Part shown: positions 8,137 to 56,063 of the stretch, in pieces
Numbering within the stretch: position 1 is the first letter of the stretch
Layout of the letters: each line of letters begins with the position of its first letter
Virus record (IMG/VR): IMGVR_UViG_3300000553_000009
Location: 62,316-126,315 of that record
DNA: 64,000 bases
Origin: a virus
Strand: one strand, 5' to 3'
Made by a program: the position numbers and the translations under genes
Notes under the pieces: model-generated
Told to the model about the DNA's origin: nothing
The model's database searches: none
The model's input: the letters and a program-made list of their open reading frames with translations, nothing else

Positions 8137-9000
8137 TTATCTTTCTCCTATGAGTAGTTTTTGTTTTTCTATATATGCTAACCTAGATTTTCTCATATTT
8201 TCTCTAGCTTCCAATGACATTTTTCTACCTACATTCACTTGCCTTAATTTTTCCTTCGTTTCTTCTGTATGTACTCTACCTAGTTGGGATCGACTCATTT
8301 TTTGTTTAGTTTCTTCTGAATGAGTTTTTCCCAAATTTGCCAATCTCATATTTTCGACATGTTTTTCGGATTTGTGTTTTCCCAAGCTCGATTGACTCAT
8401 TTTCAATTTAGTTTCCTCTGACAGAATCATACCTAAATGTCCTTTGCCAATATTTTGCTTCCACTCCTCAGAAAATTCTGGTCTTGATTTTCCTAATTTA
8501 GACTGTCGCATTTTCACCAAAGCTTCTGGCGAATGTCCTTTATGTGGAACGCCGGTTTTAGTTTTCCGCATTTTTTCAATAGCTTCTTTGGATTTAGGTT
8601 TTCCTAAACTAGCTAAACTAATTTTCCTTCTGGTTTCTTCCGAGACAGTCAATCCGGTCCTATCCGTGGAATACTTACATATATTATAACCTTTATTTAC
8701 ATTTGTAGAATCAAACAATTCTATATAATAAGATTCTCTTTCAAGAAGTTTTTTATTGTCTTTAGTTTTATCAAAAACTTCAAATATTTCTAATATTTCT
8801 ACCGTAAAGGATGACCATCCATGTTTTTTAATAGCGTTCTGTATATAATATCCCTTAATACCTTTTCGGTTTTCAGAATTTTTATGTTGGTTCAATCGGA
8901 GATACAGGTTTACTGCCTTGCCTATATAAATTTTATTACTGCCTGTAGAAGTTAATTTATATACTCCTGCCTCTTTTGGATATTCATTTCTTGGTCCCAT
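8137..9000 (-). CDS. GIY-YIG homing endonuclease with NUMOD3 repeats
   Basis: 287 residues. Catalytic domain at about 8-100: GVYKLT (GIY), IYIGKA (YIG), RL..H (Arg), and EREsyYIELFD supplying the catalytic Glu. From about 115 on there are some nine degenerate NUMOD3 repeats (consensus like HSEETKEKMR..LG), which bind DNA. It is one of five close paralogues in the window. It sits between the possible gp59 gene and a small gene, overlapping the latter by 17 bp, with its own late motif. Free-standing enzymes of this kind nick or cut alleles lacking the insertion and spread by repair. Confidence 0.9.
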   Translation of the reverse strand: MGPRNEYPKEAGVYKLTSTGSNKIYIGKAVNLYLRLNQHKNSENRKGIKGYYIQNAIKKHGWSSFTVEILEIFEVFDKTKDNKKLLERESYYIELFDSTNVNKGYNICKYSTDRTGLTVSEETRRKISLASLGKPKSKEAIEKMRKTKTGVPHKGHSPEALVKMRQSKLGKSRPEFSEEWKQNIGKGHLGMILSEETKLKMSQSSLGKHKSEKHVENMRLANLGKTHSEETKQKMSRSQLGRVHTEETKEKLRQVNVGRKMSLEARENMRKSRLAYIEKQKLLIGER

Positions 9001-15031: not shown

Positions 15032-15768
15032 GCAGATAATACTCGGTTCTTTCCGATTTCAAAATATACTGGATCTTTTTCAATACCAATAAATTTTCTA
15101 TTAGTATTTTTTGCCGAAACGCCTACTGAAAATCCACCGGCGGCGAAATCTAACACTGTATCCTCTTCTTGAGTATAAGTTTTTATTAGATATTCCATCA
15201 AAGTTATAGGTTTCTGTGTAGGATGATATCGAGTATATCCCTTATTTGCCTCCCAACATCCAGTAATGATACTTGTAGGATTTTTATCAGTATAAGTAAA
15301 GATCTTTGATTCATTATCTACATAATCTCCAATACCTTTTGAATTTTTTGTGACATTCCAAGTCGTCATAGGTTTATCTCTTGGAACTTTTATAGGATAA
15401 TAATTATGTTTGTAATTTTTAGAGAAAACTATGACATTTTCATGCTTACGCATAGGCTGTTGTTTAGCCTGATGCATTCCTCTTGGGATATGTTTATCCC
15501 AAAACCACTCATATCTAAACCATTCTCTATTAGAGCTTACCAAGTCAGAAGTGAACGGTTGTTGTCCTGTCATGACAATCACTCCATTTTCTTTAATTAT
15601 TCTTTTTAATTGAGTCCATAGGGGATCAAAAGGAATAATCACATCCCATGAGTACTACCTGTAGTTAGATGAATATGGGGGATCGGACAACACAAGGTCT
15701 ATGGAATTGTCTGGAAGATTTTTCATTTCTTCCAGACAATCGCCTAAAATGAATTGAAAATTATTCAT
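15028..15768 (-). pseudogene. DNA adenine/cytosine methyltransferase interrupted by in-frame TAG
   Basis: The frame starts at ATG 15768, overlapping the uvsX stop (ATGA). Residues 1-37 include GDCLEEM and the catalytic LVLSDPPYSSNY (motif IV, DPPY); codon 38 is TAG (15655-15657); the frame then runs on with WDVIIPFDPLWTQLK, a target-recognition region, and the SAM-binding motif VLDFAAGGFSVGV near the C-terminus. Motif IV before motif I indicates the beta class (N6-adenine or N4-cytosine). Without readthrough, the piece from 15642 lacks the catalytic DPPY and should be inactive. Otherwise the gene is intact, so the stop is recent, suppressed, or a sequence error. Confidence 0.8.
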
Positions 15769-17309
15769 TCTTCGTCTGATGGAATTTCTTCCTCTTCTAA
15801 TTCGTCTAACTTTTTAGATACTTTTCGTCTAATTGCCTTGAGTTTTTCCAATGGATCATCAGATACTTCATTATCTTCTTCATCATTATCCTCATCATCC
15901 ATTACGTCTTCTTCATCATATGGAGCTTCTTCATTAGAATATTTCCAAGCAGTTTGAATACGATTTTCTAATTCGGGTAAAAGAGTTTTTTCCCAAAGTT
16001 CCTTCTTCTTTCTCCAAGCTTTATAGAACCCTAATTGATTACCATTCCAATCTTTATATGTTTTACCACCAAGAACTACAACACCAAGACCTTTCATAAG
16101 ATCTAAAAGTCCATAATACCGATCCAATCCAGTTGCAAATGAAAGATATAGTTCCACTTCAAGATATTGTTTGATAAATCTGTTTTTAACAGATAGACAA
16201 CGAAGAATAACTCCAGAGAAGTTTCTCTGCCCTGCTGCTAATGTATTATCTACAGTTTTTCCTTCATCATCTTTCATTGGTTTTCGAGCCAATTGAATGG
16301 TGACGGAAGGTTTGTAGGCAGCACCCTTACCGCCAGGCATATTCTTATCCAGTGAAGGATACATCGCAGAAGGATCATCATATACTTCATTAGTTACTAT
16401 GATAGTTGTTTTCGTAAGCTTACCCCAATTCACACAAGTTTTTAAGAAGTTCTTAATTGACTTGGCAAATGTTCCCATATCAGCGGAAGTTGCTCCTTTA
16501 TCCATTCTAGCTTCTCCCAATTCGGTTTCCATATTAGCCAACGAATCAACTATAATGACAAACTTTCCAATTGCTCCTGCTTCTGCAACTTTTTTCAGGA
16601 AGTTGCGAACGGCATTTCGAGTATTCTCAATGGTTGTAGTTGGAACATACTTAACTTTTGTTGGATCAATCCCAAATGCTTTACATCCATCTCCCTCAAT
16701 AGCATTTTCACTATCAAAAACTACTACATGTTTTCCCATCTTCTGAGAATTTGCAATAAGTTTTTGAACAAAAAAAGTTTTTCCACAGTTATGACTACAT
16801 AACCCACCACTCCAATACCGTTGATTCATATGATTAACTGATATATCATACACAAGTTGTGGTTCAATTTTTTCTATATTCGTTATTTCCAAATCACCAG
16901 ACTGTGTTAATAGCATCTCCCCAATCTCTAAGTTTTTAGTAAACTCCCAAGTTTTATCATCTCTCTGAAATTGGTGTATCTCAGAACATTCCACACTATA
17001 ATCTCCTACCGTGACCCTATAACACTCCGAGATAGGTCGCTCAAATATTTTATTAATATCCGTCCATCCATCAGGAGAGTCCACTAAATATCTACAATTA
17101 TATTTCATCATTTCAGGAATAGTTATTTCCTCTGAGTAATTCGATACATGTATGTCAAATAATTGAATTATTTTGTCCTCAGTATGTTTCGACACCATTC
17201 CCCCGTGAAAAAGTTTCGACACTAACTCCCGGTCTACTTCTGCGAGTTCTCCAATCTCTGTAAACGTGTAAAACTCTTTAAGTTCCTCTAATATTTCTTG
17301 TACTGTCAT
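15765..17309 (-). CDS. uvsX: UvsX recombinase C-terminal part with split-intein C-half
   Basis: 514 residues. Residues 1-174 are an intein C-terminal fragment: ECSEIHQFQRDDKTW resembles block B, VYDISVNH...YWSGGLCSHN is a classic block F/G ending His-Asn, and Cys175 is the +1 nucleophile. The exteins then resume in the P-loop (CGKTFF), followed by VVVFDSENA, the Walker B-like FVIIVDSLA, the PGGKG segment and an acidic tail typical of UvsX. Trans-splicing with the 18445 product would regenerate GPSMCGKT. Residues 1-60 are extra helical sequence of unknown role. The recombinase pairs homologous DNA with UvsY (31989) and gp32. Confidence 0.9.
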   Translation of the reverse strand: MTVQEILEELKEFYTFTEIGELAEVDRELVSKLFHGGMVSKHTEDKIIQLFDIHVSNYSEEITIPEMMKYNCRYLVDSPDGWTDINKIFERPISECYRVTVGDYSVECSEIHQFQRDDKTWEFTKNLEIGEMLLTQSGDLEITNIEKIEPQLVYDISVNHMNQRYWSGGLCSHNCGKTFFVQKLIANSQKMGKHVVVFDSENAIEGDGCKAFGIDPTKVKYVPTTTIENTRNAVRNFLKKVAEAGAIGKFVIIVDSLANMETELGEARMDKGATSADMGTFAKSIKNFLKTCVNWGKLTKTTIIVTNEVYDDPSAMYPSLDKNMPGGKGAAYKPSVTIQLARKPMKDDEGKTVDNTLAAGQRNFSGVILRCLSVKNRFIKQYLEVELYLSFATGLDRYYGLLDLMKGLGVVVLGGKTYKDWNGNQLGFYKAWRKKKELWEKTLLPELENRIQTAWKYSNEEAPYDEEDVMDDEDNDEEDNEVSDDPLEKLKAIRRKVSKKLDELEEEEIPSDEE

Positions 17310-18414
17310 GATTATTAATTTTATTTTTTATTATCGTTCTAAACTGTAAAATCTTATCCTGTCGATTATCTATCTTTTCCCAAAAATATAAAATCTCGAA
17401 ATTATTGTGGTTAGCCAATTCCTCTTTGTTAAGATCTTTTTTTAAACTATCAGTTACTGTTATAAACGGAGTGTCCTTAACTCGGGGGTGAAACATTATT
17501 CCGTTGTATTCAATAATTAAATTAAGTTGCGGTATTGTAAAATCGTAAAAATATATTGATTTATTTTTATGGTCATAAATAAAATATTCATCGTCATCCA
17601 CATATATCTGGAAGTCTTGGGGAACTCCCAATCCGGCTATTATTTCCTTAAAAAATAAGGAAGAAGCTTTCGAATACCGTTTAAAACATGATGTCCTTTT
17701 CCATAAAATCTCGTCCTTCTCTGATTGGGGCCGAGCATTAAACGTGGTTGAGCATTTATTCGCTATAATAGATTGAATATTTAAAGCCTCAGATTCCGAT
17801 ACATTATGTCGAGTCATTATAGATTCCAATGACCGAGTATTTTGTAATATAGATATTCTTATTTTAGCGTCATCTGCTGAGAACCCTCTAAATGTCCAAA
17901 ACTCAATATTTTTACAGGACCATCTTTTTTTATAGCCACCCAATTTAATTATTGTATCCTTATTGGATTGAACTTTTCGCCTAACCCTATCTTCATATTT
18001 AAGTTTAGCTTCTTCCTGTGAAATACCATAATACTCTGCTAACTTAGCAGGATCTTTAAAATTATGAGCTTTCTTAACATTTATTTTTTCTAATTCCTCC
18101 AGAGATTTTTGAGCATTTGTAGTCTTCATTCTCTCCATCGCTCTTTCTTTAACCGCTAAATCTAAATACCGACCGCCCTGTAAGCGTAATATTTCCGATT
18201 TAGCAGAATCTAAATCCCAAAATCTCTCTAAAAAATGTGAGATATTTCGTACAGTATGCGTCGGAAATAAATCACTTATTATAGGACGCTTGTGTTTCCA
18301 TATCAGTAGGTACTCTCTATATTTTCTCCATGTATCACTTTTAGTTCCCCTATAATTTTTTACCTTTTTCATAAGGGACATGAAATGTTGTTTATTAGAT
18401 AATTTTTTAGCCAT
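17278..18414 (-). CDS. Vsr-like/EDxHD homing endonuclease inside fractured uvsX
   Basis: 378 residues. The N-terminal two thirds is basic and helical with repeated HTH-like segments (KLAEYYGISQEEAKLKYEDR, SIMTRHNVSESEALNIQSII). The C-terminal domain has QLNLIIEYNGIMFHP, the Vsr/EDxHD-type nuclease signature, followed by DSLKKDLNKEE and FEILYFWEK. Enzymes of this type occur between the two halves of split inteins in 'fractured' phage genes (gp41, nrd, IMPDH), and here it lies exactly between the uvsX halves. It overlaps the downstream half by 32 bp and has its own late motif. Confidence 0.8.
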   Translation of the reverse strand: MAKKLSNKQHFMSLMKKVKNYRGTKSDTWRKYREYLLIWKHKRPIISDLFPTHTVRNISHFLERFWDLDSAKSEILRLQGGRYLDLAVKERAMERMKTTNAQKSLEELEKINVKKAHNFKDPAKLAEYYGISQEEAKLKYEDRVRRKVQSNKDTIIKLGGYKKRWSCKNIEFWTFRGFSADDAKIRISILQNTRSLESIMTRHNVSESEALNIQSIIANKCSTTFNARPQSEKDEILWKRTSCFKRYSKASSLFFKEIIAGLGVPQDFQIYVDDDEYFIYDHKNKSIYFYDFTIPQLNLIIEYNGIMFHPRVKDTPFITVTDSLKKDLNKEELANHNNFEILYFWEKIDNRQDKILQFRTIIKNKINNHDSTRNIRGT

Positions 18415-18419
18415 ACTAT

Positions 18420-18426
18420 TATTTAG
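18420..18426 (-). promoter_or_regulatory. Late promoter motif CTAAATA
   Basis: Minus-strand CTAAATA, 5 nt, ATG 18414 of the Vsr-like endonuclease. It lies in the 30-bp gap after the intein N-half gene. Confidence 0.7.
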
Positions 18427-18444
18427 TATGGCGATCCGATTTTT

Positions 18445-18753
18445 TCATTGACCCCCCGGCGAGGTATATCGCCGCCTATAAACTCTGAGTTTTTGATTTC
18501 CGGTTAAACACATAGAAGGCCCAGCAAATTGAATTACTCGACCTTCTTGTGCTCCACCATACAATGATCCTGAAATAATAGCATTCAAAGCTAAAGAACC
18601 AGTATCAATCCAAGCGTCCACCCTCGAAAGAGTGGATTCGCTTAGATAGGTGGCATATGGATTGACTTCATCAATCGAATCCATAAGTTTCTTGTACTTC
18701 GCAAAGCTTTCTACTTCTTTTTTTTCTTTAATTTCTTTAACTTTAGCTGCCAT
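18445..18753 (-). CDS. uvsX: UvsX recombinase N-terminal part with very short intein N-half
   Basis: 102 residues. Residues 1-81 are the UvsX N-terminus up to the first half of the P-loop (VIQFAGPSM). Cys82 begins the intein: CLTGNQKLRVY is block A, and the gene ends 21 residues later. Such a short N-half is the atypical split architecture (AceL-TerL type), not the ~90-residue N-half of gp41-1-like inteins. The splice junction GPSM/C...N/CGKT lies in the ATP-binding loop, so no active recombinase exists until trans-splicing with the 15765 product. Confidence 0.88.
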   Translation of the reverse strand: MAAKVKEIKEKKEVESFAKYKKLMDSIDEVNPYATYLSESTLSRVDAWIDTGSLALNAIISGSLYGGAQEGRVIQFAGPSMCLTGNQKLRVYRRRYTSPGGQ

Positions 18754-18755
18754 AA

Positions 18756-19631
18756 TTAATTCCCTTCAATTTCCTTAGACTGTTTACGTTTAATATTATT
18801 CTGTTTCATTTTCTCTTTAGATTCTAAGGAATGTTTCCTTCCAAGTCCCGCCTGTCTTAACTTTTCCTTATGTTCTTCGGAAAGTTTTCTCCCCGTTTTT
18901 GCAAAACTCATATTTTGTTTTGCTTTCTCCGATTTAGGTTTTCTCATTTTTTCTTTGGCTTCTTCGGAATGTGTTCTCCCAAGATTAACTTGTCTAAATT
19001 TTTCCTTGGTTTCCTCTGATTTAGGTTTTCTCATTTTTTGCTTCGCCTCTTCAGAATGTTTTTTCCCTAATCTGCTTAGACTCATTTTTTCTTTGGTTTC
19101 TTGAGAATGCTTTCTCCCCAATCCAGTAGATTTTCCTAATCTAACCCGACTCATTTTTTCTTTAGTTTCCTTAGAAGCAGTTTTTCCTAGTTTGGCTTGT
19201 CTATATTTTTGTTTTATTTCCTCTGATGGTATCTTCCCTCTATTAGAATCTCCTATTTTTCTTTTTGTTTCTTCGGAGACGGGCATTCCAGTTCTATCAG
19301 TGGAAAACTTACATATATTATATCCTATATCTATATTAGTGGAATCAAACAATTCAATATAATGGGATTCTCTTTCTAATAAGAAAGTATTATCTTTTAA
19401 TTTATCAAAATTATCAATTATTTCCAAAATTTCGACGGAAAACGATTTCCATCTATGTTTAATCAAGGCATATTGAAGATATGATAATCTTTTATTACCC
19501 TGTTTAACATTTCTATAATGATAGAGTCTTTTTCTAATATTAATTGATTTTCCAATATATATTTTTCCATTATTAATACAAGTTAGTTTGTAGACCCCGG
19601 CGACATTTGGATATTCTGGATGAGTTCCCAT
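18756..19631 (-). CDS. GIY-YIG homing endonuclease with NUMOD3 repeats
   Basis: 291 residues. Catalytic domain at 8-100 (GVYKLT, IYIGKS, LLERESHYIELFD), then about ten NUMOD3 repeats, two of them shortened to KMRKPKSEE. A close paralogue of the enzymes at 8137, 29496, 36575 and 50025. It inserted immediately upstream of uvsX, 2 bp from its start, so the same recombinase gene has attracted two unrelated endonucleases. It has its own late motif. Confidence 0.9.
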   Translation of the reverse strand: MGTHPEYPNVAGVYKLTCINNGKIYIGKSINIRKRLYHYRNVKQGNKRLSYLQYALIKHRWKSFSVEILEIIDNFDKLKDNTFLLERESHYIELFDSTNIDIGYNICKFSTDRTGMPVSEETKRKIGDSNRGKIPSEEIKQKYRQAKLGKTASKETKEKMSRVRLGKSTGLGRKHSQETKEKMSLSRLGKKHSEEAKQKMRKPKSEETKEKFRQVNLGRTHSEEAKEKMRKPKSEKAKQNMSFAKTGRKLSEEHKEKLRQAGLGRKHSLESKEKMKQNNIKRKQSKEIEGN

Positions 19632-29331: not shown

Positions 29332-29499
29332 TTATTCTGGTTCTACTATTACTGCTTTTTTAAGTTCTGGGGTTCTATCATCTATCCAAGTACTATGAGG
29401 CTCTATTAACATTGCTTTGGAATTGGGTCCATTGTAATCTAGTACTGCTTTCCATTTATCTACTATTCTTTTTAATTCTTCTGGTGACGTTTCGCTCAT
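29332..29499 (-). CDS. Small hypothetical protein
   Basis: 55 residues (MSETSPEELKRIVDKWKAVL...), acidic, helical N-terminus. Its ATG overlaps the stop of the upstream endonuclease (ATGA) and it ends 4 bp before gp55. Coding potential rests on this coupling and a clean frame. Before the endonuclease inserted, it probably followed uvsW directly. Confidence 0.55.
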   Translation of the reverse strand: MSETSPEELKRIVDKWKAVLDYNGPNSKAMLIEPHSTWIDDRTPELKKAVIVEPE

Positions 29500-30251
29500 A
29501 AATCAATTTTAATAACGGGGATTACTATATTAGTTTTTCTTTTAGATTCTCTTAATTTATCTTTATGTTCTTGAGAGAAAGGCTTGCCCAATTTGGCCAG
29601 TCTCATCTTTAATTTAGTTTCATCTGAGCGTTTCTTTCCTAGATTAGATTGTCTATTTTTTTCTTTAGATTCTTCAGTATGCTTCTTACCCATACGACTT
29701 TTTCTTATATTTTCTCTAGCTTCCTTGGATCTAGGTTGTCTCATCTTTTCCTTCGATTCTTCAGAATGAGTTTTTCCTAAATTATAATTTCTCATCTTTT
29801 CTCTATTCTCTTCAGTTGACATTTTATTTTTAATAGCTTCTTTATGATGATCAGATAAAGGCTTTCCGAGTTTAGCCTTGCTCATTTTTTCTTTTGTATC
29901 ATCTGAATGGACCAATCCGGTCCTATCTTGGGAATAGGTGCAGATATTGTATCCTATATCTTTATTAGTGGATTCAAATACTCCTATATAATATGCCTCC
30001 TTCTCTAATAAAAATTTATTATCTTTAGTTTTATCAAAATTTTCAAAAGTTTCTATAATTTCAACTACAAAAGAATTCCATCCATACTTTATAATCACAT
30101 TTTCAAAATAACATCTACCTTTAGATCTACGTTCACAGTATCTATGTGAATTTAATCGTTTATTTAAATTAATAGCTTTACCTATATATACTTTACCATT
30201 ATATATACAAGTTAATTTATAAATTCCCGCGACATTTGGATAGCTAGTCAT
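29496..30251 (-). CDS. GIY-YIG homing endonuclease with NUMOD3 repeats
   Basis: 251 residues from MTSYPNVAGIYKLT; this ATG overlaps the uvsW stop as ATGA, and a longer reading upstream would run inside uvsW. Catalytic domain GIYKLT, VYIGKA, RL.SHR, LLEKEAYYIGVFE; about eight NUMOD3 repeats follow. The last residues, IVIPVIKIDL, are unlike other NUMOD3 tails and may be the displaced original C-terminus of uvsW. There is no late motif before it, so it depends on uvsW transcription. Confidence 0.88.
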   Translation of the reverse strand: MTSYPNVAGIYKLTCIYNGKVYIGKAINLNKRLNSHRYCERRSKGRCYFENVIIKYGWNSFVVEIIETFENFDKTKDNKFLLEKEAYYIGVFESTNKDIGYNICTYSQDRTGLVHSDDTKEKMSKAKLGKPLSDHHKEAIKNKMSTEENREKMRNYNLGKTHSEESKEKMRQPRSKEARENIRKSRMGKKHTEESKEKNRQSNLGKKRSDETKLKMRLAKLGKPFSQEHKDKLRESKRKTNIVIPVIKIDL

Positions 30252-31675
30252 TTTAGTATTAATTTGCCGAGCAAATTTATTTCCGATTCTTTCCACGGAA
30301 TTTGTTCTTCTGTGTAAAATTGTTTTCTCTCTTCCACATGTCTCTTGGAATATTTTAGATTATCATAGATATCGAATAACACAAGTTGATCCTTTGAATC
30401 ATGTAATCTTAATCCTCTTCCAATTGACTGTATAGTTCTGATGAAACTTTTACCTCCAGACACAAACATAATATAATGAAGATTCTTAATATTTATACCA
30501 GTTGAAAATATTTTAGACATGGCAATACAGACAATATTATCCTGTATTTCCATCTTATTTGTTATGGACTGTCTTTCTTCCACAGGCATTTCACCATTGA
30601 TAAAATAAACCTCTTTGCCTTCTAATTCAAGAGCGGCCAATAAATTATTACCATGCTCAAGTCTGTTGACAAGAATTAGAACATTTTTATCCAATCTCTT
30701 CACCAGAACCTTTATCATATTATTTCTCAAAGAAGACTCATGAATAAATTGAAGTTCTTCCTCATATCCCTTAATTTTAAGGGAATGATTTAATTTAATA
30801 ATCTTAATTATCGCATTAGATAAGTATCCCTCATCTCTGAGTTCTTTGGATTTCTTTTCGTAAATCACTCTTCCAAATGTTCCAATGACTTTCCATTTAT
30901 CCATTAATGCTTTTGGAAGAGTTCCAGTGAATCCAAACTTATAAGGAGTTTTTATCTTATGTAATACTTTTGCTAATTTACTGGAAGTGTTTACTTTGTG
31001 ACACTCATCAGTTATAACCAAATCAACTTCTGTCAACCACTTGAAATTTGAAAATTGAGAACATAAATTTTCAGAATTGGCAATTATTACCTGAGTGTCC
31101 TGAGGTTTCGTCCCACCCGTCCAGCCTGAATATGTAAATGTTACTCCATAATCTTCAAAGTCTCCCATAAGTTGATCTACCAGAGATAACCCAGGAACGA
31201 CCAGGAGGCACTTGAAATCATCCGAAACCTTTTCCTTGTAAGTCTGCAAGAGGGATGCTTGCAACAAGCTCTTACCTGATCCTGTGGCACTTACGATGGT
31301 TCCGTGATGACTAGAGAAAGCACATTCCAATGTTTCTCTTTGATATTCTCTTAAATCATATCTAAGAGTATCCGACATGGATAAAACTATTCCGAATTGA
31401 ACATATACTCGTTTTCTAAAAGCTTCAGTATATTCAACTTCTCCCAATTGTTTTTCTCGAATAAATTTTTGAATATCATCTTCCAATCCAAAATCGAAAG
31501 ATCCATTAGATCCGATGGCATAATCTCTATCAGGAATATGCTTATTGACTTTTTTAATATAATAACTTCCCGCCTTTTTAACGGAAAAATGGTTACGAAT
31601 CAAACCGAAAATTGAGGAGTCTTCACAACTCAATTTTCCCTTTCTCGATTTTTCATCATAATCCAAAGTTATCAT
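30248..31675 (-). CDS. uvsW: SF2 helicase UvsW
   Basis: 475 residues (T4: 503). An N-terminal DNA-binding region of about 110 residues precedes RecA domain 1 with the Q-motif-like LREYQRETLE, Walker A SATGSGKS near 130, DECH near 221, FTGTLP motif III; domain 2 includes ILVNRLEHGNN, MSKIFSTGINIKNL and QSIGRGLR motif VI. UvsW unwinds branched DNA and R-loops, switching the phage from origin- to recombination-dependent replication. The C-terminus (EEQIPWKESEINL...) may have been altered by the adjacent endonuclease insertion. Confidence 0.93.
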   Translation of the reverse strand: MITLDYDEKSRKGKLSCEDSSIFGLIRNHFSVKKAGSYYIKKVNKHIPDRDYAIGSNGSFDFGLEDDIQKFIREKQLGEVEYTEAFRKRVYVQFGIVLSMSDTLRYDLREYQRETLECAFSSHHGTIVSATGSGKSLLQASLLQTYKEKVSDDFKCLLVVPGLSLVDQLMGDFEDYGVTFTYSGWTGGTKPQDTQVIIANSENLCSQFSNFKWLTEVDLVITDECHKVNTSSKLAKVLHKIKTPYKFGFTGTLPKALMDKWKVIGTFGRVIYEKKSKELRDEGYLSNAIIKIIKLNHSLKIKGYEEELQFIHESSLRNNMIKVLVKRLDKNVLILVNRLEHGNNLLAALELEGKEVYFINGEMPVEERQSITNKMEIQDNIVCIAMSKIFSTGINIKNLHYIMFVSGGKSFIRTIQSIGRGLRLHDSKDQLVLFDIYDNLKYSKRHVEERKQFYTEEQIPWKESEINLLGKLILK

Positions 31676-33762: not shown

Positions 33763-34218
33763 ATGACAACCTGGGAGAGATTACCTGAAGATACTACTAA
33801 TTATATAGGTTTTATATATATTATTATTAATAATTATAAAGAAAATACTATAGACCCACCAATAAAAAAGTACTATATAGGAAAAAAACAATTACTTAAA
33901 AAGACAAGATTAAAGAAAAACAATACTAGAAAAAGAGATAAAATTGTATGGAAAGATAATGATGTGGAAAAATATTGGGGATCTTCCAAAGAATTATTAC
34001 AAGATATTGAAAAATATGGTATAGAAAATTTTAGAAGAGTAGTAATAGAAATGTGTACATCAAAATGGCATATGACTTATTCAGAACTAGCCTGGCAAAT
34101 GGAATTTAATGCTATTATTGACCCAACATTCTATAATGGAATATTAAATTGCAGATTGGTAAAATGTCCAAAGGGATATGTTGACATTGAAAGAAACCGT
34201 GATAACCTCAATTTATGA
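33763..34218 (+). CDS. SegE-like GIY-YIG endonuclease
   Basis: 151 residues. FIYIII and KYYIGKK are the two halves of a GIY-YIG motif; KDNDVEKYWGSSKELLQDIE and the later YSELAWQMEFNAI (catalytic Glu region) follow the SegE-type layout, which lacks an added repeat domain. It probably cuts rival phage DNA. It has the only perfect-consensus sigma70 promoter in the window, so it should be expressed early. It is coupled to the next gene (ATGA). Confidence 0.7.
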   Translation: MTTWERLPEDTTNYIGFIYIIINNYKENTIDPPIKKYYIGKKQLLKKTRLKKNNTRKRDKIVWKDNDVEKYWGSSKELLQDIEKYGIENFRRVVIEMCTSKWHMTYSELAWQMEFNAIIDPTFYNGILNCRLVKCPKGYVDIERNRDNLNL

Positions 34219-35721: not shown

Positions 35722-35724
35722 ATA
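35718..35724 (+). promoter_or_regulatory. Late promoter motif TTAAATA
   Basis: TTAAATA, 5 nt (ATACT), ATG 35730; overlaps the upstream stop codon. Confidence 0.75.
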
Positions 35725-35729
35725 ATACT

Positions 35730-36122
35730 ATGAGATTTAAAGATAATGAATTAATGTGGGAAGCATATAGTGCGCCTATGAGTTTTGGTGGTGGCCAGGA
35801 TGAACAGGAACTTGTATTATCTTTGGGAAGTGATCAAGATTTAGGGGTTGGAGACGAATTTGAATCTGATGAACTATCTGATGATGATTTAGATGGAATT
35901 ATGGATGATGGTGATGTGGGGGAAGATGAAATTGATAAACTTGTCATGATAGAACTTAAAAAACTTGCCAAATATTCCGATATGATTCTTCAACATTGTT
36001 CAGAAGTTGAACTAGAACCTTGGATGCTGGCCAAATTAGTCAAGGCCGCAACTTATGTCTGTGATATTTGGGACCAAATAGATCATGGAGCAGACTTCGC
36101 AAATGATGGCATCGCCCTGTAA
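35730..36122 (+). CDS. Acidic late protein
   Basis: 130 residues. Leader MRFKDNELMWEAYSAP (cleavable after W-E/A). Residues 40-75 are a dense Asp/Glu tract; the C-terminus is helical (IELKKLAKYSDMILQHCSEV ... LAKLVKAATYVCDIWDQID). Similar helical modules occur in virion-associated proteins of T4-like marine phages, function unknown. Confidence 0.6.
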   Translation: MRFKDNELMWEAYSAPMSFGGGQDEQELVLSLGSDQDLGVGDEFESDELSDDDLDGIMDDGDVGEDEIDKLVMIELKKLAKYSDMILQHCSEVELEPWMLAKLVKAATYVCDIWDQIDHGADFANDGIAL

Positions 36123-36128
36123 TGAAAC

Positions 36129-36578
36129 ATGAAATCTTTCAAACTATATTTTGTAGAAAAAACTATTCTTGGTTTGGAAGAAACCATTTATATTGATGAA
36201 ATTGGACAACTTAAAGCAAAGCTCGATACTGGTAATGGCGCATTTAATGTTCTCCACGGGGAGGATATCCAACAAGATGGAAAACTTGTTCGCTTTACCA
36301 CCGACAAGGCAATCGTTTTGGAAAAGCCCATATCCAGTAGAATCACAATTAACCTTGGAGCAGGCAATACGGAAGAACGTCCGGTTGTCCTTCTGAATGT
36401 AAAAATTGGAAATAAGATTTTTAAAGACATTCCGTTTTCCATAGGAGACAGAAAAGATAATGTTCATAAGGTTCTAATTGGTAAGAATTTTATACAGACA
36501 AATCTCAACGCACTTGTGGATGTATCCTTGATAGATGTAGCCAGTAAAAATTTAGAGGCAGATTATAAAAATGTATGA
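36129..36578 (+). CDS. Retropepsin-like aspartic protease (zinc-protease/RimK-associated family)
   Basis: 149 residues. ETIYIDEIGQLKAKLDTGNG near 18-37 holds the catalytic Asp-Thr-Gly, followed by NVLHGEDI, VRF, RPVVLLNVKIGN and DRKDNVHKVLIGKNFI near 111-126; this is the ordered motif set of the PF05618 retropepsin-like fold. The N-terminus MKSFKLYFVEKT resembles a T4 internal-protein leader, so the protease may be packaged in the head. Its last 25 residues (LNALVDVSLIDVASKNLE...) are duplicated at the end of the adjacent endonuclease. Confidence 0.72.
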   Translation: MKSFKLYFVEKTILGLEETIYIDEIGQLKAKLDTGNGAFNVLHGEDIQQDGKLVRFTTDKAIVLEKPISSRITINLGAGNTEERPVVLLNVKIGNKIFKDIPFSIGDRKDNVHKVLIGKNFIQTNLNALVDVSLIDVASKNLEADYKNV

Positions 36579-37330
36579 AATCATATCCAACAGGAGCGGG
36601 AATATATAAATTGACTTGTGTCAAGAATGGAAAGGTATATATAGGAAAGTCCGTTAATATTTATTTTAGACTTAGTTATCATAAAAGCTGTGAAAAAAAA
36701 TCTAAGGGGAGAGGATATTTTGAAAATTCTATAATAAAATATGGATGGGATTATTTTAATATCGAGATATTAGAAACTGTCGATAATTTTGATAAATTAA
36801 AAGACAACGTCGCTCTTCTTGAAAGAGAAGCATATTATATAAAATTATTTGATTCTACCAATACTTCTAAGGGATATAATATATGTTCGTATTCTACCGA
36901 TAGAACTGGAATACCAAATTCTGAAGAGACGAGAAAAAATATAAGTCAAGGTCAATTAGGACGAAAGCTTTCAGAAGAAACAAAAGAAAAGATTAGACAA
37001 TCTAGACTTGGAAAAGCCGGTACCCCCCATTCTGAAGCGACTAAAGAACACCTAAGACAAATTAATACTGGAAAAAAACTTTCAGAAGAACAGAAAAGTA
37101 AACTGAGACAATTTCGACTCGGGACAAAACACTCCGAAGAAACCAAATTAAAGTTAAGTTTGGCCAGAATTGGCAACTCTAATGCCCGTGGGTTTAAACA
37201 TTCAGAAGAGACTAAAGAAAAATGTAGGTTAGGTAAACTAAAAAGTAAGCAATCCACAACAGAACTTGATGCTCTAATTGATGTTAGTTTATTAAATGTA
37301 GCAGATAAGAATTTGGAGGTATCGGTATGA
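36575..37330 (+). CDS. GIY-YIG NUMOD3 endonuclease carrying the displaced end of its target gene
   Basis: 251 residues, coupled to the protease gene by ATGA. Catalytic domain (GIYKLT, VYIGKS, LLEREAYYIKLFD), then about six NUMOD3 repeats. The last 21 residues, beginning LDALIDVSLLNVADKNLEV, are not endonuclease sequence: 13 of 19 match the C-terminus of the protease upstream. The stop overlaps the next gene's ATG, as the protease stop once did. The endonuclease frame therefore reads into the original 3' end of the gene it invaded. Confidence 0.9.
   Translation: MKSYPTGAGIYKLTCVKNGKVYIGKSVNIYFRLSYHKSCEKKSKGRGYFENSIIKYGWDYFNIEILETVDNFDKLKDNVALLEREAYYIKLFDSTNTSKGYNICSYSTDRTGIPNSEETRKNISQGQLGRKLSEETKEKIRQSRLGKAGTPHSEATKEHLRQINTGKKLSEEQKSKLRQFRLGTKHSEETKLKLSLARIGNSNARGFKHSEETKEKCRLGKLKSKQSTTELDALIDVSLLNVADKNLEVSV
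37265..37330 (+). repeat. Displaced copy of the protease gene 3' end
   Basis: The coding equivalent of 36504-36578 with about 13 identical residues of 19, diverged at the DNA level; now used as the C-terminus of the endonuclease. Confidence 0.75.
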
Positions 37331-37887
37331 ATCATTTAACTCAAAAGGAACTTTTATCGGAGGGATTTTGGTCAAAGTTTGGGCAAGGATTGAAAAGTGC
37401 TGGGAAAGCTGGATGGGAAGTTGGAAAATTTTCGGCTAAACATGTAGCTCCATCAGTATATAATCCACTTGCTGCAACAGCAAATGCCACCAAAGAATTA
37501 AATCAAAATATAATCAAGGCTACCACCCCAACTGAAAAATATATCTCAGATCAATTACATATGAGAGGATATGTAGTAGAGGGCCAAATTGAACCTATTC
37601 CAATGCCAAGAGGATTTTCCAAAGAAAAACAAACATTCTTTGTCACTGTCAATAAAATGGCATTCAACCCCACAAGTAAAAAAATGGAAGTATCTACTCT
37701 ACCAAGAGATTTAGATATTCCTTTAGTTGTGGATAAGTATGGAAGCATTATAGAAAATCTGAGAAATAACCCAGAAAAAATTAAGGCATTTAAAGGAAAG
37801 ACTATCACTCGTCCTCCAAAACCAAATCCTCAAGTAATAAATACGCCAGTTGCTCCTGCAACTCCGGTTACTTCTGTAGCCCCTTGA
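37327..37887 (+). CDS. Late protein with capsid-targeting-like leader
   Basis: 186 residues. Leader MNHLTQKELLSE, then Gly-Phe-Trp (L-S-E/G cleavage pattern). Residues 13-60 form an amphipathic Gly/Ala/Lys-rich stretch (GFWSKFGQGLKSAGKAGWEV) that could be membrane-active; a small beta domain follows (TFFVTVNKMAFNP), then a Pro/Val/Ala tail. No family recognised. Coupled upstream by ATGA. Confidence 0.62.
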   Translation: MNHLTQKELLSEGFWSKFGQGLKSAGKAGWEVGKFSAKHVAPSVYNPLAATANATKELNQNIIKATTPTEKYISDQLHMRGYVVEGQIEPIPMPRGFSKEKQTFFVTVNKMAFNPTSKKMEVSTLPRDLDIPLVVDKYGSIIENLRNNPEKIKAFKGKTITRPPKPNPQVINTPVAPATPVTSVAP

Positions 37888-38189: not shown

Positions 38190-38212
38190 AATTGCTTTCT
38201 CTAACTAAGAGA

Positions 38213-38219
38213 TTAAATA
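38213..38219 (+). promoter_or_regulatory. Late promoter motif TTAAATA
   Basis: TTAAATA with a 7-nt gap to ATG 38227, one of three motifs with 7 instead of 5 nt. Confidence 0.6.
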
Positions 38220-38226
38220 ATATCAC

Positions 38227-38973
38227 ATGGCAACTAAATCTACCCCCAGGGCGAGACGTAAAGAAGTTAAAAATATTGAGATAGAAACCGCGTTAGCTCA
38301 TAATTATGCTAAATTGGATTTTAAATTTAGAAAAAGAGATTACTCCTTTACGGAAAAACAGAAAGCATTAATTAATGTAATTTTAGATCCTGATATTAAA
38401 GTTGTGATGATTGATGGGGTAGCGGGAACTTCTAAAAGTTTGATTTCTGTTTACTGTGGCTTGACCATGTTACTGAAACAATCCACAAATAAGATGCTTT
38501 TCATGCGATCTGTAGTAGAAAGTTCTCAAAAAGGATTGGGATTTTTGAAAGGCACGCTCGAAGAAAAAATGGAAGTTTGGAGACATGTACTAGATAGTAA
38601 ATGTGAAGAACTGATTGAGCCTTTACATCTTCCGTTAGTTATGGCCTCTGGAAAATTAGAAGCTCTTCCAATTAATTATATTCGAGGGGCATCATGGAAA
38701 AATATGTATGTGGTGGTGGATGAATGTCAAAATCTAGATTATGATGCATATAAATTGATAATGAGTCGGATTGGTGACAATACAAAACTTATTATGTGTG
38801 GGGATTCTGATCAATGTGATATTAAGGATTCTGGATTTAAAAAAGTATATGAAATATTTAATGATTATGATTCCCAAAATATGGGGATAGTGTCTTTTAA
38901 ATTTGAGGAGTCTGACATTGTTAGGTGTGAATTATGTAAGTATATAGTGGGAAAATTTCGAATAGATAGATAA
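38227..38973 (+). CDS. phoH: PhoH-like P-loop ATPase
   Basis: 248 residues. FTEKQKALINVI, Walker A MIDGVAGTSKSLI near 67-79, FMRSVVESSQKGLGFLKGTL, the Walker B MYVVVDECQNLD near 160-171, and IMCGDSDQCDI near 190 are the PhoH-family motifs. PhoH-like proteins are widespread in marine phages and may be RNA-linked ATPases or helicases; the actual phage role is unsettled. Confidence 0.9.
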   Translation: MATKSTPRARRKEVKNIEIETALAHNYAKLDFKFRKRDYSFTEKQKALINVILDPDIKVVMIDGVAGTSKSLISVYCGLTMLLKQSTNKMLFMRSVVESSQKGLGFLKGTLEEKMEVWRHVLDSKCEELIEPLHLPLVMASGKLEALPINYIRGASWKNMYVVVDECQNLDYDAYKLIMSRIGDNTKLIMCGDSDQCDIKDSGFKKVYEIFNDYDSQNMGIVSFKFEESDIVRCELCKYIVGKFRIDR

Positions 38974-49981: not shown

Positions 49982-50032
49982 ATGATTAGAGTAGAAGACC
50001 AGCTTAAAAATACTAAATACATGAATGAGTGA
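49982..50032 (+). pseudogene. Remnant 5' end of the gene now starting at 50872
   Basis: A 16-codon frame, MIRVEDQLKNTKYMNE then TGA. Its first nine residues match MLRLDNQLK of the gene at 50872, which now lies on the other side of the endonuclease. The endonuclease's late motif and ATG begin inside it. Interpreted as the original start of that gene, cut off by the insertion. Confidence 0.6.
50013..50019 (+). promoter_or_regulatory. Late promoter motif CTAAATA
   Basis: CTAAATA, 5 nt, ATG 50025 of the endonuclease; it lies inside the remnant 5' end. Confidence 0.7.
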
Positions 50033-50885
50033 TCATTCTAAATATCCAAAAGAGGCCGGTATCTATAAATTAACTTGTTCTGATAATGGAAAAGTGTATA
50101 TAGGAAAATCAGTAAACATTCATGTTAGACTTATAAACCATAAAAGTTATGAAAACAAGTCTAAAGGGAAATGTTATTTCCAAAATGCTATAATAAAATA
50201 TGGTTGGAACGCTTTCACGGTTGAAATACTAGAAATATTCGAAAATTTTGATAAGTTAAAAGATAACGATAGTCTTCTTTCAAGAGAATCATACTATATA
50301 GAACTATTTGATTCTGCCAATGTTGACAAAGGATACAACTTATGTAAATATTCTAATGATATGACTGGTCGAAAACTTTCCGAAGAAACGAAAGAAAAAA
50401 TGAGAAAGCCTAAATCCGAGGAACATATAGCAAAAATGAGAAATCGCCCGTGTTCAAAAGAAACAAGAGATAAAATAAGACAGTCTCAGATAGGAAGACA
50501 ACACTCCGAAGAATCTAAAGAAAAAATGAGAAGGGCGAATATAGGAAAAAAATTATCTGAAGAAACTAAAGAAAAAATAGGAAAGGCTGGAAAGGGGAGA
50601 CGACACTCCAAAGAAGCTAAAGAGAAAATGAGACTAGCTAATATGGGAAAAAAACACTCCGAAGAAACCAAAGAAAAACTTCGAAATATATCCGAAGAAA
50701 AGAGAGAAGAAACAAGACAAATGGGAAAGTCAAACTTGGGCAGAAAACACTCCGATGAAACCAAGAAAAAAATAAGCGAAGCCGGAAAGAAAAACTCTGG
50801 GAAACATCACTCGGAAGAAACAAAAGAGAAAATGAGATTATCTCACCAGAAACGATGGAATATAAAAAAATATGCTACGACTTGA
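50025..50885 (+). CDS. GIY-YIG homing endonuclease with NUMOD3 repeats
   Basis: 286 residues. Catalytic domain (GIYKLT, VYIGKS, LLSRESYYIELFD) at 10-105, then about ten NUMOD3 repeats, the most regular array in the window. Its 3' end overlaps the gene at 50872 by 14 bp: the ATG that now begins that gene is inside the endonuclease's last codons. The remnant of the older start lies at 49982. The endonuclease thus carries a replacement 5' end for its target. Confidence 0.9.
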   Translation: MSDHSKYPKEAGIYKLTCSDNGKVYIGKSVNIHVRLINHKSYENKSKGKCYFQNAIIKYGWNAFTVEILEIFENFDKLKDNDSLLSRESYYIELFDSANVDKGYNLCKYSNDMTGRKLSEETKEKMRKPKSEEHIAKMRNRPCSKETRDKIRQSQIGRQHSEESKEKMRRANIGKKLSEETKEKIGKAGKGRRHSKEAKEKMRLANMGKKHSEETKEKLRNISEEKREETRQMGKSNLGRKHSDETKKKISEAGKKNSGKHHSEETKEKMRLSHQKRWNIKKYATT

Positions 50886-51207
50886 CAACCAACTAAAAAG
50901 TTTAATATTTAAACATGTGGATTTTCAATTGGATGGGAAATCCATTAAGAAAGGAAAAATTCAAATATTCAATACTAAACAATTTTTCATAAAGTTTAAA
51001 TTAGATAATGGAGGAGATATTAAAGAATATGAGTTGCCCTATCCTTTTAAAGTCGTAAAAATTCCAAATGGATATTTGTTTGATTATTCCTTATCTGCAT
51101 TCATTCCAAGAACTGAAGAAATGTATTGGAAAATGAAATGTATGAACAAATCAGAAGCTTCCAAGCTTCATGACAGTTATCTCTACGTTTTGACACTTTC
51201 CTCTTGA
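50872..51207 (+). CDS. Hypothetical protein with replaced 5' end
   Basis: 111 residues, beta-rich (GKIQIFNTKQFFIKFKLDNG) with a mixed C-terminus. No family recognised. The start MLRLDNQLK is within the endonuclease's 3' end and parallels MIRVEDQLK at 49982, so the current N-terminus probably arrived with the endonuclease while the rest is native. Confidence 0.6.
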   Translation: MLRLDNQLKSLIFKHVDFQLDGKSIKKGKIQIFNTKQFFIKFKLDNGGDIKEYELPYPFKVVKIPNGYLFDYSLSAFIPRTEEMYWKMKCMNKSEASKLHDSYLYVLTLSS

Positions 51208-52912: not shown

Positions 52913-54040
52913 ATGACACAGTTAATAACACAATTACTAAAACAAATAACTTGGATTGATAGAAATATAAAAATTCCCCGTGAATATGCTATGAAACCTG
53001 ATTATCCATCAGAGTTTCAACAATATTTTGGAACTACTCCTTTCGCATCCTTAAAGTTCGATAAAATTCTCTATAGAAATAAGTTTAAAAGCTTTGTGAA
53101 GTATCTCATGGATTTGGATTTTGTGCCGGTTCAAATGGGAACGTCATCATTCAAATTAGTGAACTTTCATAGAAATATTTTAATTGTGGGAGAGATTGCG
53201 GACATCATTAAAGAAGAATCAGAGGAGGAAGAAGAGCAAGGATATGCTGTTAATAATAACGAAGAGGTATTTGTTTCTTTTTATCCAACTATGGAAAATA
53301 AAGGATTTGTCACTGAACTTATTAAAAAAGTTGATTCTAAGTTTTTAAGAGAAGAGTTGATTGTTCGTAATAAGTTTTTCATGGTGGCACAGAATCAAAG
53401 AGGTTTATATTCTCAAAGGACCACATTTAAAGCAATTCCTATTAAGGATGATAGATATGATTTATTTTACGGTAAAAAGTTTCCCCACGAAGATTTTAAA
53501 AAGTTCATAACAGATGAAACTGAACATTTAATGTTATTTTATGGAGAACCAGGCACAGGCAAGTCAAATTATCTCAAAAATCTTATAATCAATTCCAGAA
53601 AGAATGTTATATACATTCCACCGGGAATGTTAAGGGTGATTTCTTCTCCAGATTTTGTATCTTATGTGATGGAAAATAAAAATAGTATTTTGATTGTAGA
53701 AGACGCAGAAGATGTTCTTTCAATAGATAGGAACGCTGCGACAACAAATCTATTACAAATTTGCGACGGATTTTTACGCGACTGCCTCAACTTGAAGGTA
53801 CTGGCAACTTTTAACGCGCCTATAAGTAAAATTGATCCAGCTTTATTACGTAAAGGGAGATTATATATGAGTCATGAATTTGTAAAATTAACTCCCAGCG
53901 AATCTAATAAATTGGCGGATTTCTGTGGAATAAATTATAATTTTACGGAGGATTCTTCATTGGCGGAAATTTTTAATGTTAAGAAATCTACTTCTGCTCT
54001 ATCCAAACCTACTACTGCTATTGGTTTTGGAAACTTTTAA
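52913..54040 (+). CDS. AAA+ ATPase (BCS1/26S-ATPase-like)
   Basis: 375 residues. A 200-residue N-terminal domain with an acidic insert (EEESEEEEEQGY region near 105) precedes the AAA+ module: LMLFYGEPGTGKSNYLKNLI near 207-226 (Walker A), SILIVEDAEDVLSI near 262-275 (Walker B), VLATFNAPISKIDPALLRKG near 301-320 (sensor 1 plus arginine finger). This resembles BCS1/ClpX-like remodelers more than the gp44 clamp loader. Target unknown. It converges on the endonuclease cassettes. Confidence 0.8.
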   Translation: MTQLITQLLKQITWIDRNIKIPREYAMKPDYPSEFQQYFGTTPFASLKFDKILYRNKFKSFVKYLMDLDFVPVQMGTSSFKLVNFHRNILIVGEIADIIKEESEEEEEQGYAVNNNEEVFVSFYPTMENKGFVTELIKKVDSKFLREELIVRNKFFMVAQNQRGLYSQRTTFKAIPIKDDRYDLFYGKKFPHEDFKKFITDETEHLMLFYGEPGTGKSNYLKNLIINSRKNVIYIPPGMLRVISSPDFVSYVMENKNSILIVEDAEDVLSIDRNAATTNLLQICDGFLRDCLNLKVLATFNAPISKIDPALLRKGRLYMSHEFVKLTPSESNKLADFCGINYNFTEDSSLAEIFNVKKSTSALSKPTTAIGFGNF

Positions 54041-55068
54041 ATTTCGTTCGATGAATCAGACTCATTTAAGAGTTTTAGTTTTAAAACACGTCTTTGTTTA
54101 TTAGAATTTCTTATTTTTTGTTTAGTTTCCTCACTATGCGGAAATCGTTTTCTATTCTTTTGAGCAATAGACATTTTTAACTTAGACTCTTCGGACATAG
54201 GGATTCCTTTTTTCAGGCTGGGTTTGCCTTTCCGAGAAATAGACATTTTCATTCTGGATTCTTCTGATACCGATTTTCCTTTTCTTGGACTGGCTTTTCC
54301 CTTATGGGCATTCGAAATTTTTAACTTAGTTTCTTCAGACATAGGAGAACGAGTTTTTCCTTTTCGAGCTAAAGACATTTTGAGTTTTGTTTCCTCTGTA
54401 TGTTTTCGCCCTCTAACGGAATCAGCTAATTTTTGGCGATGTTCAGGAGTTCTACACTTAGCTTTATCCGATAGATATTGTCTTTGCTCCGGTGTTAAAT
54501 TTAATTTTTTCCCTTTATTGATATTAGGAATTCCTTTCCGCAATCCCGCCAATCGTTGACGTTCCTCTTCTGAGCAAGATTTACCGAAATTATGGTGATT
54601 CTCTCCCGATCTGGCCAATGACATATTATTTCTAGCTTCCAATGACATTTTAGTTCCTAGTTTAAGAGAAGACATTCTTTGTTTGCACTCTTCGGTATGT
54701 TTAAATCCTTTATTAGATTCTACTCTTTTTCGTTTAGTTTCTTCGGATTGAACTATTCCAGTCGGATCTATTCCTCTGGCAGATATATTATATCCATTAG
54801 GAACTAACGAATTATATCTTACTATCATTTGTTCTTCTAAGTCTAATAAACTTTCCTTGTCAAAATCTGGAAGATAATATATTTCTAATTCAAAGTTTTC
54901 CTTTCCATATTTTTCTATGGCTTTTCTTATAATTTGCGTATTGGGTCTATTATGTTGGGCCATCCTTCTTTTCATGTTACTAGTCTCCCCGATATAGTAT
55001 TTGTCATTCACAATACATCTCATAATGTAAACTCCTGCTCGTCTCTCAAATACATCTGTTAATTTCAT
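54037..55068 (-). CDS. GIY-YIG NUMOD3 endonuclease of cassette 1
   Basis: 343 residues. AGVYIMRCIVNDKYYIGETS begins a GIY-YIG domain of a subtype different from the five 'YPxxAG' paralogues (the E comes in LLDLEEQMIVRYNS). About eleven NUMOD3-like repeats follow (K.LSEE/SEETKLKMS...). It is paralogous to 55398 and is directly preceded by a ribbon-helix-helix gene (5-bp gap). The cassette points against the flanking genes. Confidence 0.88.
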   Translation of the reverse strand: MKLTDVFERRAGVYIMRCIVNDKYYIGETSNMKRRMAQHNRPNTQIIRKAIEKYGKENFELEIYYLPDFDKESLLDLEEQMIVRYNSLVPNGYNISARGIDPTGIVQSEETKRKRVESNKGFKHTEECKQRMSSLKLGTKMSLEARNNMSLARSGENHHNFGKSCSEEERQRLAGLRKGIPNINKGKKLNLTPEQRQYLSDKAKCRTPEHRQKLADSVRGRKHTEETKLKMSLARKGKTRSPMSEETKLKISNAHKGKASPRKGKSVSEESRMKMSISRKGKPSLKKGIPMSEESKLKMSIAQKNRKRFPHSEETKQKIRNSNKQRRVLKLKLLNESDSSNEI

Positions 55069-55397: not shown

Positions 55398-56063
55398 TTA
55401 ATTCATTAATTCATTTAATTGTTGTAATAATTGAGAAAGTTTTTTTCTTTTTTGATCAATTCTTATTTTTTCTTTATGCTCTGGTGATTGCTTTCGACCT
55501 TTTAATGGACTGATCTTTCCTCTATGTGAAAGGGATTGTTTCAATCTCCATTGAGAGGATCTTGGAGGGTGTGTTCTTCCGACCTGCGACCGGGACATTT
55601 GTTCTCTGGTTTCTATAGATAATGGCCCCTTTAATTTACCCTTTTTTCTGTCGGACATTTTTTTCTTAGTTTCATCAGAAAATATTCTTTTGGGATTATC
55701 TATCCATGATTGTTTTATTTTAAAAATGGCCTCTGGAGTATGTTTATATCCAGTACTATCATTTCCCCGTTTTGATATATTATAACCGAACGGCACCAAA
55801 GAATTAAACTTTATAATTAGTTGTTCTTCTAAGTCTAATAAGTCACATTTTTTAAAATATGAAAAATATTCCACGTATACACTAAAATTATCAATCCCAT
55901 ATTTTTTAATGGCGCTATGGATTACTTGATTTCCGATAGCGTTTCGATGAGTAAAAAGTCTTTCTTTTATATCTACGCTCTCTCCAATATAGTATTTATG
56001 ATTTATATTATTCTGTATAATATAAATCCCCGGTATACGATTAAATGTATCAGTAAGTTTCAT
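55398..56063 (-). CDS. GIY-YIG endonuclease of cassette 2
   Basis: 221 residues. PGIYIIQNNINHKYYIGESV and DLLDLEEQLIIKFNSLVPFG mirror the cassette 1 enzyme. Shorter repeat tail of about five NUMOD3-like units, ending LSQLLQQLNELMN. It overlaps its ribbon-helix-helix gene by 14 bp. Inserted between the gp15 remnant and the intact gp15. Confidence 0.88.
   Translation of the reverse strand: MKLTDTFNRIPGIYIIQNNINHKYYIGESVDIKERLFTHRNAIGNQVIHSAIKKYGIDNFSVYVEYFSYFKKCDLLDLEEQLIIKFNSLVPFGYNISKRGNDSTGYKHTPEAIFKIKQSWIDNPKRIFSDETKKKMSDRKKGKLKGPLSIETREQMSRSQVGRTHPPRSSQWRLKQSLSHRGKISPLKGRKQSPEHKEKIRIDQKRKKLSQLLQQLNELMN

Follow-up and report, generated by a model that had tools for sequence, protein, structure and literature searches.

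In this work we have analyzed a free-standing homing endonuclease gene located at the 3′ end of a protease gene in a 64,000-nt stretch of marine phage DNA (IMG/VR record IMGVR_UViG_3300000553_000009, positions 62,316 to 126,315; hereafter the window), and we conclude that the C-terminal tail of this endonuclease is very likely the displaced native end of the protease and not an endonuclease domain. The assignment rests on the ends of endonuclease-free relatives, which match the tail, on the allele affinities at a second locus (L008) and on a frameshift at a third (L005). In all likelihood homing has taken place here within a coding end, the cassette supplying a substitute for the gene end, whose displaced original persists as a relic; cleavage and endonuclease activity are inferred. 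Homing endonucleases favour conserved coding sequence and are believed to gain access to it under the cover of self-splicing introns or inteins.

The target gene (36129-36578, plus strand) encodes a protease-like protein (PF05618 Zn_protease, Pfam E=1.1e-11). It is followed on the same strand by the free-standing GIY-YIG/NUMOD3 homing endonuclease gene (36575-37330; phrog_314 homing endonuclease, E=3.6e-35), whose start overlaps the protease stop and whose stop overlaps the start of the following gene. The product scores 38.8 bits with PF01541 (cut-off 22.6) and 46.1 bits with PF07460 (cut-off 20.4). The gene lies outside any intron or intein, having its own frame and ATGA overlaps with both neighbours, and the protease frame is complete without splicing. 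The protease ends ...LNALVDVSLIDVASKNLEADYKNV and the endonuclease ends ...TTELDALIDVSLLNVADKNLEVSV; the terminal peptides LNALVDVSLIDVASKNLE and LDALIDVSLLNVADKNLE, respectively, are related, with 13 of 18 residues identical. Local alignment of the two C-termini gave a score of 70, whereas 20,000 shuffles averaged 20.7 and never exceeded 49 (Gumbel p ~2e-7), and the pair ranked second among the 3,003 C-terminus pairs of the long ORFs in the window, the first being a pair of NUMOD3 paralogues. The endonuclease tail lies beyond the NUMOD3 match (Pfam residues 183-216). At the DNA level the two copies are only 59% identical over 63 nt, so they are either old or were never identical. The copy in the protease gene (36501-36578, plus strand) is the putative replacement 3′ end, whose arrival with the endonuclease cassette is inferred, and the copy forming the in-frame C-terminus of the endonuclease (37265-37330, plus strand) is identified by allele comparisons as the displaced native end. 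The original downstream neighbour of the protease (37327-37887, plus strand), now separated from it by the insertion, is recognized by its position and by its overlap with the displaced protease stop, as in empty relatives. The overlap of the endonuclease stop with the next ATG at 37327 (GTATGA) mirrors that of the protease stop in the majority of the closer endonuclease-free relatives. A preliminary description of the region had claimed a shared C-terminal segment and an endonuclease stop overlapping the next ATG as the protease stop once did; both claims held, with both segments at the positions given for them and the same overlap in endonuclease-free relatives, the count of identities being corrected from 13 of 19 to 13 of 18.

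Searches of IMG/VR returned 40 loci with the protease as a query and 80 with a protease alignment. The site at the protease end is occupied in the window, L005/L006, L008/L009 and L146 and empty in dozens of relatives, which defines a presence/absence polymorphism. Most endonuclease-free loci nearest to the window have a single protease end with an ATGA overlap with the following gene. The four endonucleases of this site have a common repeat layout and cluster in the endonuclease tree (a value as low arose in 0 of 500 label shuffles), with a branch support of only 63. A search of viral contigs with the following gene yielded no match for the version present in the window, and a search of genome contigs found distant endonucleases only. 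Two relatives show other arrangements. In L144 (1900-2990) a different endonuclease is found 53 nt beyond the protease end, just within the following gene, whose start is duplicated around it (MTNFTQQEILREGF before and MITQRTLCSEGFW after). The endonuclease-free allele of L007 (5434-6919) has a different downstream gene, whose end consists of tandem repeats (DSNGYEQWYEYDENNN...).

The preliminary description had proposed that a cassette with its own replacement end displaced the native one, and had predicted that alignment with endonuclease-free relatives would reveal one protease end, closer to the 37265-37330 copy. The alignment has been done and the prediction was fulfilled. Among the ten endonuclease-free relatives nearest in the protease body, nine have ends nearer to the tail (37265-37330), one is tied and none is nearer to the present end (36501-36578). 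No empty relative has two ends; one with two would have indicated that both existed beforehand and would have refuted the proposal. The body of the window protease is closest to L001, L003 and L004 and its end groups with the ends of other occupied alleles; the last ~75 nt of the gene are thus, by their affinities, of the foreign (cassette) type. L008 supports the displacement as an independent example of a match to empty alleles: its tail shares 82% nucleotide identity with the empty L013/L014 versus 63% with its own protease end, which is in turn 84% identical to the occupied L005 end. When L005 was compared with the empty L007, 21 of 362 positions differed in the body and 19 of 76 at the end (Fisher p=3e-6), giving a sharp tract edge ~75 nt before the protease stop that corresponds to the left boundary of such an exchange. 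In a tree of 51-nt ends all four occupied ends (window, L005, L008 and L146) fall into one supported set of nine rows (96/82) from which the window and L008 tails are excluded. The comparisons of protease ends rest on short segments (51-63 nt), and AU tests on 51 nt, which have low power, did not reject tail and end as one clade at the 0.05 level (p=0.08 for L008 and 0.22 for the window). L005 taken alone does not show the predicted direction and does not tell end from tail: the protease end is at least as near to the empty alleles as the tail is, the two being 73% identical. The rank correlation between body identity and end or tail identity over the whole set of relatives gave no informative signal.

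The tail is shown to be dispensable. At L005/L006 the relic LLDVSLVDVAGKNMEVDL follows the endonuclease stop in another frame, the frameshift having dropped the tail from the endonuclease; at L146 at most a five-codon vestige, possibly ALNNV, is left before the next ATG; and the match with the nearest paralogue, 61% identical and encoded by the same genome, is confined to residues 3-219 of the window endonuclease. For these three reasons the tail is not considered a part of the endonuclease. It was also sought in NUMOD3 paralogues and in relatives at other genes and was absent there; the tail is therefore not one common to unrelated NUMOD3 endonucleases, and this second refuting condition of the preliminary description does not hold. 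The claim that the native end had been fused in frame to the endonuclease is true for the window, but the fusion is incidental and not selected, since the tail has been frameshifted off in L005/L006 and almost lost in L146. With the relic in frame, the stop of the endonuclease overlaps or adjoins the next start like the former protease stop, and it is possible, though only inferred, that this arrangement preserves translational coupling.

Mirror cases were found at gene starts in the same endonuclease family. An initial free-frame scan of the flanks served for leads only, its null being contaminated by tandem and paralogous homing endonuclease genes. In a start-anchored test with mismatched loci as the null, a displaced start fragment of the downstream gene was detected upstream of 6 of 30 GIY-YIG/NUMOD3 family endonucleases (above 99% of the null; 0.3 expected), and about 20 of the 30 had no recognisable relic. 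In the window such a displaced native start, MIRVEDQLKN (49982-50011, plus strand; score above 99% of the null), precedes a second GIY-YIG/NUMOD3 homing endonuclease gene (50025-50885, plus strand), which encodes the 61% identical paralogue. The intact downstream gene (50872-51207, plus strand) begins MLRLDNQLKS, inferred from start comparison to be the replacement, and in 18 empty relatives the start is no less similar to the relic than to the present start. The relic of L221 matches the undisturbed start in the window at 26 of 33 nt versus 17 of 33 for the gene of L221 itself. Similarly, the relic of L222 matches the starts of L216 and L220 at 23 and 22 of 24 nt, the start of its own gene matching them at 15 and 14 of 24.

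Five more GIY-YIG/NUMOD homing endonuclease genes lie on the minus strand of the window (8137-9000, 18756-19631, 29496-30296, 54037-55068 and 55398-56063), which with those starting at 36575 and 50025 makes seven in 64 kb. A SegE-like GIY-YIG protein (PF19835) without NUMOD3 repeats is encoded a few genes upstream of the protease (33763-34218, plus strand). The sequence TAAATA, which looks like a T4-type late promoter element, occurs shortly before many gene starts, those of endonucleases included (35722-35730, 38206-38227, 50013-50025 and the endonucleases of several loci). At 15765-18753 (minus strand) a UvsX/RecA-like gene is apparently broken at its ATP-binding loop. The two intein-like halves lie in different frames (GPSM-CLTGNQKL... 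and ...SHN-CGKTFF) and enclose a separate endonuclease-like ORF (17278-18414), an arrangement that recalls 'fractured' split-intein genes.

Among the free-standing seg/mob endonucleases of T4, a relic test of the same kind detected none except in mobC. T4 MobC begins with MNYDRIY, the first seven residues of NrdG, and in endonuclease-free T-even phages nrdG directly overlaps nrdD. The nrdG gene of T4 is of the type of Klebsiella phage Boboto (donor) for ~300 nt and then native (139 informative sites). The mobC genes of T4 and Boboto differ by two bases only, both within the relic, where T4 has the native bases. The start of the Boboto endonuclease has 20 nt the same as nrdG of the mobC-free Klebsiella phage W14-2, the nrdG start of Boboto itself matching at 16 of 20. 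The first 40 nt of the OMNI12 endonuclease are identical (40/40) to nrdG of the endonuclease-free LF82-33 and mobillu, compared with 32/40 for the nrdG start of OMNI12, and this endonuclease is near-complete in 30 records. In contrast, segH of RB3 has replaced both flanks and left no relic. In the T4 record (L315; 42446-43538) a Klebsiella-phage-like donor is the source of mobC and of the initial ~300 nt of nrdG, with a sharp crossover within the latter gene.

We propose that the homing endonuclease would invade the 3′ end of the protease coding sequence by cutting near the conserved ...LDALIDV... codons, the cleavage site being inferred. The break would be repaired, by a pathway also inferred, from a donor phage carrying the protease end together with the endonuclease. 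On the left side homologous recombination within the protease gene would import the complete donor end, and therefore the target protein would stay full length. On the right side the old protease end of the recipient and the next gene would be joined behind the endonuclease at a short homology. The old end would become the relic, the endonuclease frame reading through it (window, L008) or not (L005, L146), and its short homology to empty alleles would be available when the element is next transferred. Judging from the T4 case, the relic itself may act as a second, short homology arm, because donor and recipient sequences differ beyond it. In the mirror version, which this endonuclease family shares with T-even HNH endonucleases (T4 mobC, OMNI12), the start of the downstream gene would be displaced upstream of, or into, the N-terminus of the endonuclease and an imported start would serve the downstream gene.

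Three other explanations have been considered. A tandem duplication at insertion, in which the phage would have copied its own protease end by target-site duplication or repair slippage and the copies would then have diverged, would account for two copies flanking a single insertion, and at L005 affinity does not clearly tell the end from the tail. It is nevertheless very unlikely, since the L008 tail resembles the empty ends of other phages more than its own end, the starts of L221, L222 and OMNI12 show the same foreign affinity, and T4 nrdG carries a foreign tract of ~300 nt beside mobC; duplication was rejected on allele affinities, which contradict it wherever relatives are dense. A functional role for the tail in the endonuclease, as a DNA-binding or regulatory peptide copied from the target gene, would agree with the tail being in frame and open in the window and L008. 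This can practically be ruled out: the tail is frameshifted off in L005/L006, a vestige in L146 and missing in the 61% identical paralogue, and its sequence follows the allele of the recipient and not the endonuclease, so the explanation was rejected on frameshift and absence. Ordinary intronless homing into an intergenic site with both flanks co-converted, the duplicated peptide being convergent or due to chance, conforms to what has been described for free-standing phage endonucleases (PMC2988022) and to RB3 segH, but is as good as eliminated by a peptide similarity far above chance that is seen again, with exact allele matches, at further genes, and is refuted by the exact 40-nt OMNI12 relic and the L008 tail.

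Gene-end replacement thus remains the preferred reading, and its closest counterparts are the mobile ORFs (mORFs) of Glomus mitochondria (atp6, atp9, cox2 and nad3 hybrids), in which a foreign C-terminus brought by the ORF completes the invaded gene and the native C-terminus stays downstream of the endonuclease, clustering with relatives of the recipient (PMC3630166, which also cites an earlier case in Allomyces atp6). Likewise, the invaded gene of the window is completed by a foreign end, as is T4 nrdG by its donor tract, expression of the hybrid genes being inferred, and the native end is kept on the far side and clusters with relatives of the recipient (window, L008, mirror cases). The fungal elements are mitochondrial and mostly LAGLIDADG, with GIY-YIG in atp9, whereas the phage cases involve GIY-YIG/NUMOD3 and HNH enzymes, the endonuclease frame sometimes runs on through the relic and there are mirror cases at gene starts. 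Intronless homing has been described for SegF, SegG and MobE of T4 (PMC2988022), with which our cases share free-standing GIY-YIG/HNH genes, starts often overlapping the upstream stop and flank co-conversion; those endonucleases, however, are described as intergenic and cutting a neighbouring gene. Aeh1 mobE in nrdA and T4 mobA in gene 60 similarly lie within coding sequence (PMC2988022), but there the target is split into two coding regions, whereas the protease of the window is restored whole. Prophage e14 in icd and integrases in tRNA genes supply a replacement gene end, so that the target stays whole, and leave the displaced end at the far side. They depend on a site-specific integrase, attachment sites and excision, unlike the window, for which double-strand-break repair is inferred and no att sites are present: only an endonuclease gene lies between the copies, and these are 59-73% identical, not identical att repeats.

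Papers on phage endonucleases describe intergenic location with co-conversion as well as gene-splitting insertions (PMC2988022, PMC2993671, PMC10448857), and in these three we found no account of a replaced gene end accompanied by its displaced relic. No description of such replacement in phages was found in the literature searched, which did not reach the SegH/Hef paper (PMC1275590). The statement of the preliminary description that nothing of this kind was known for free-standing homing endonucleases therefore holds only for phages and within that literature. Fungal mitochondria are the prior home of this kind of element, the occurrence in phages and the mirror cases at gene starts being new within the same limits.

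In a bolder reading, which we regard as likely, gene-end replacement is a general and overlooked route by which free-standing phage homing endonucleases of the GIY-YIG and HNH families, T4 mobC included, enter conserved coding sequence with neither intron nor intein. The cassette would bring the missing 3′ or 5′ end; the end of the recipient would be left behind as a relic, in many cases taken into the endonuclease frame as its C- or N-terminus, and this relic would supply the second homology arm when the element moves on. On the main reading, the window locus and its relatives represent a third solution in phages, that of bringing the gene end that is broken. It would account for unusual extensions at the C- and N-termini of phage endonucleases as well as for the short gene-end duplications adjoining them, and the relic would be a sequence signature locating the cutting sites. 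Gene ends would become recombination hot spots yielding hybrid phage proteins, and the T4 mobC and OMNI12 cases bring the question within ordinary T-even crosses.
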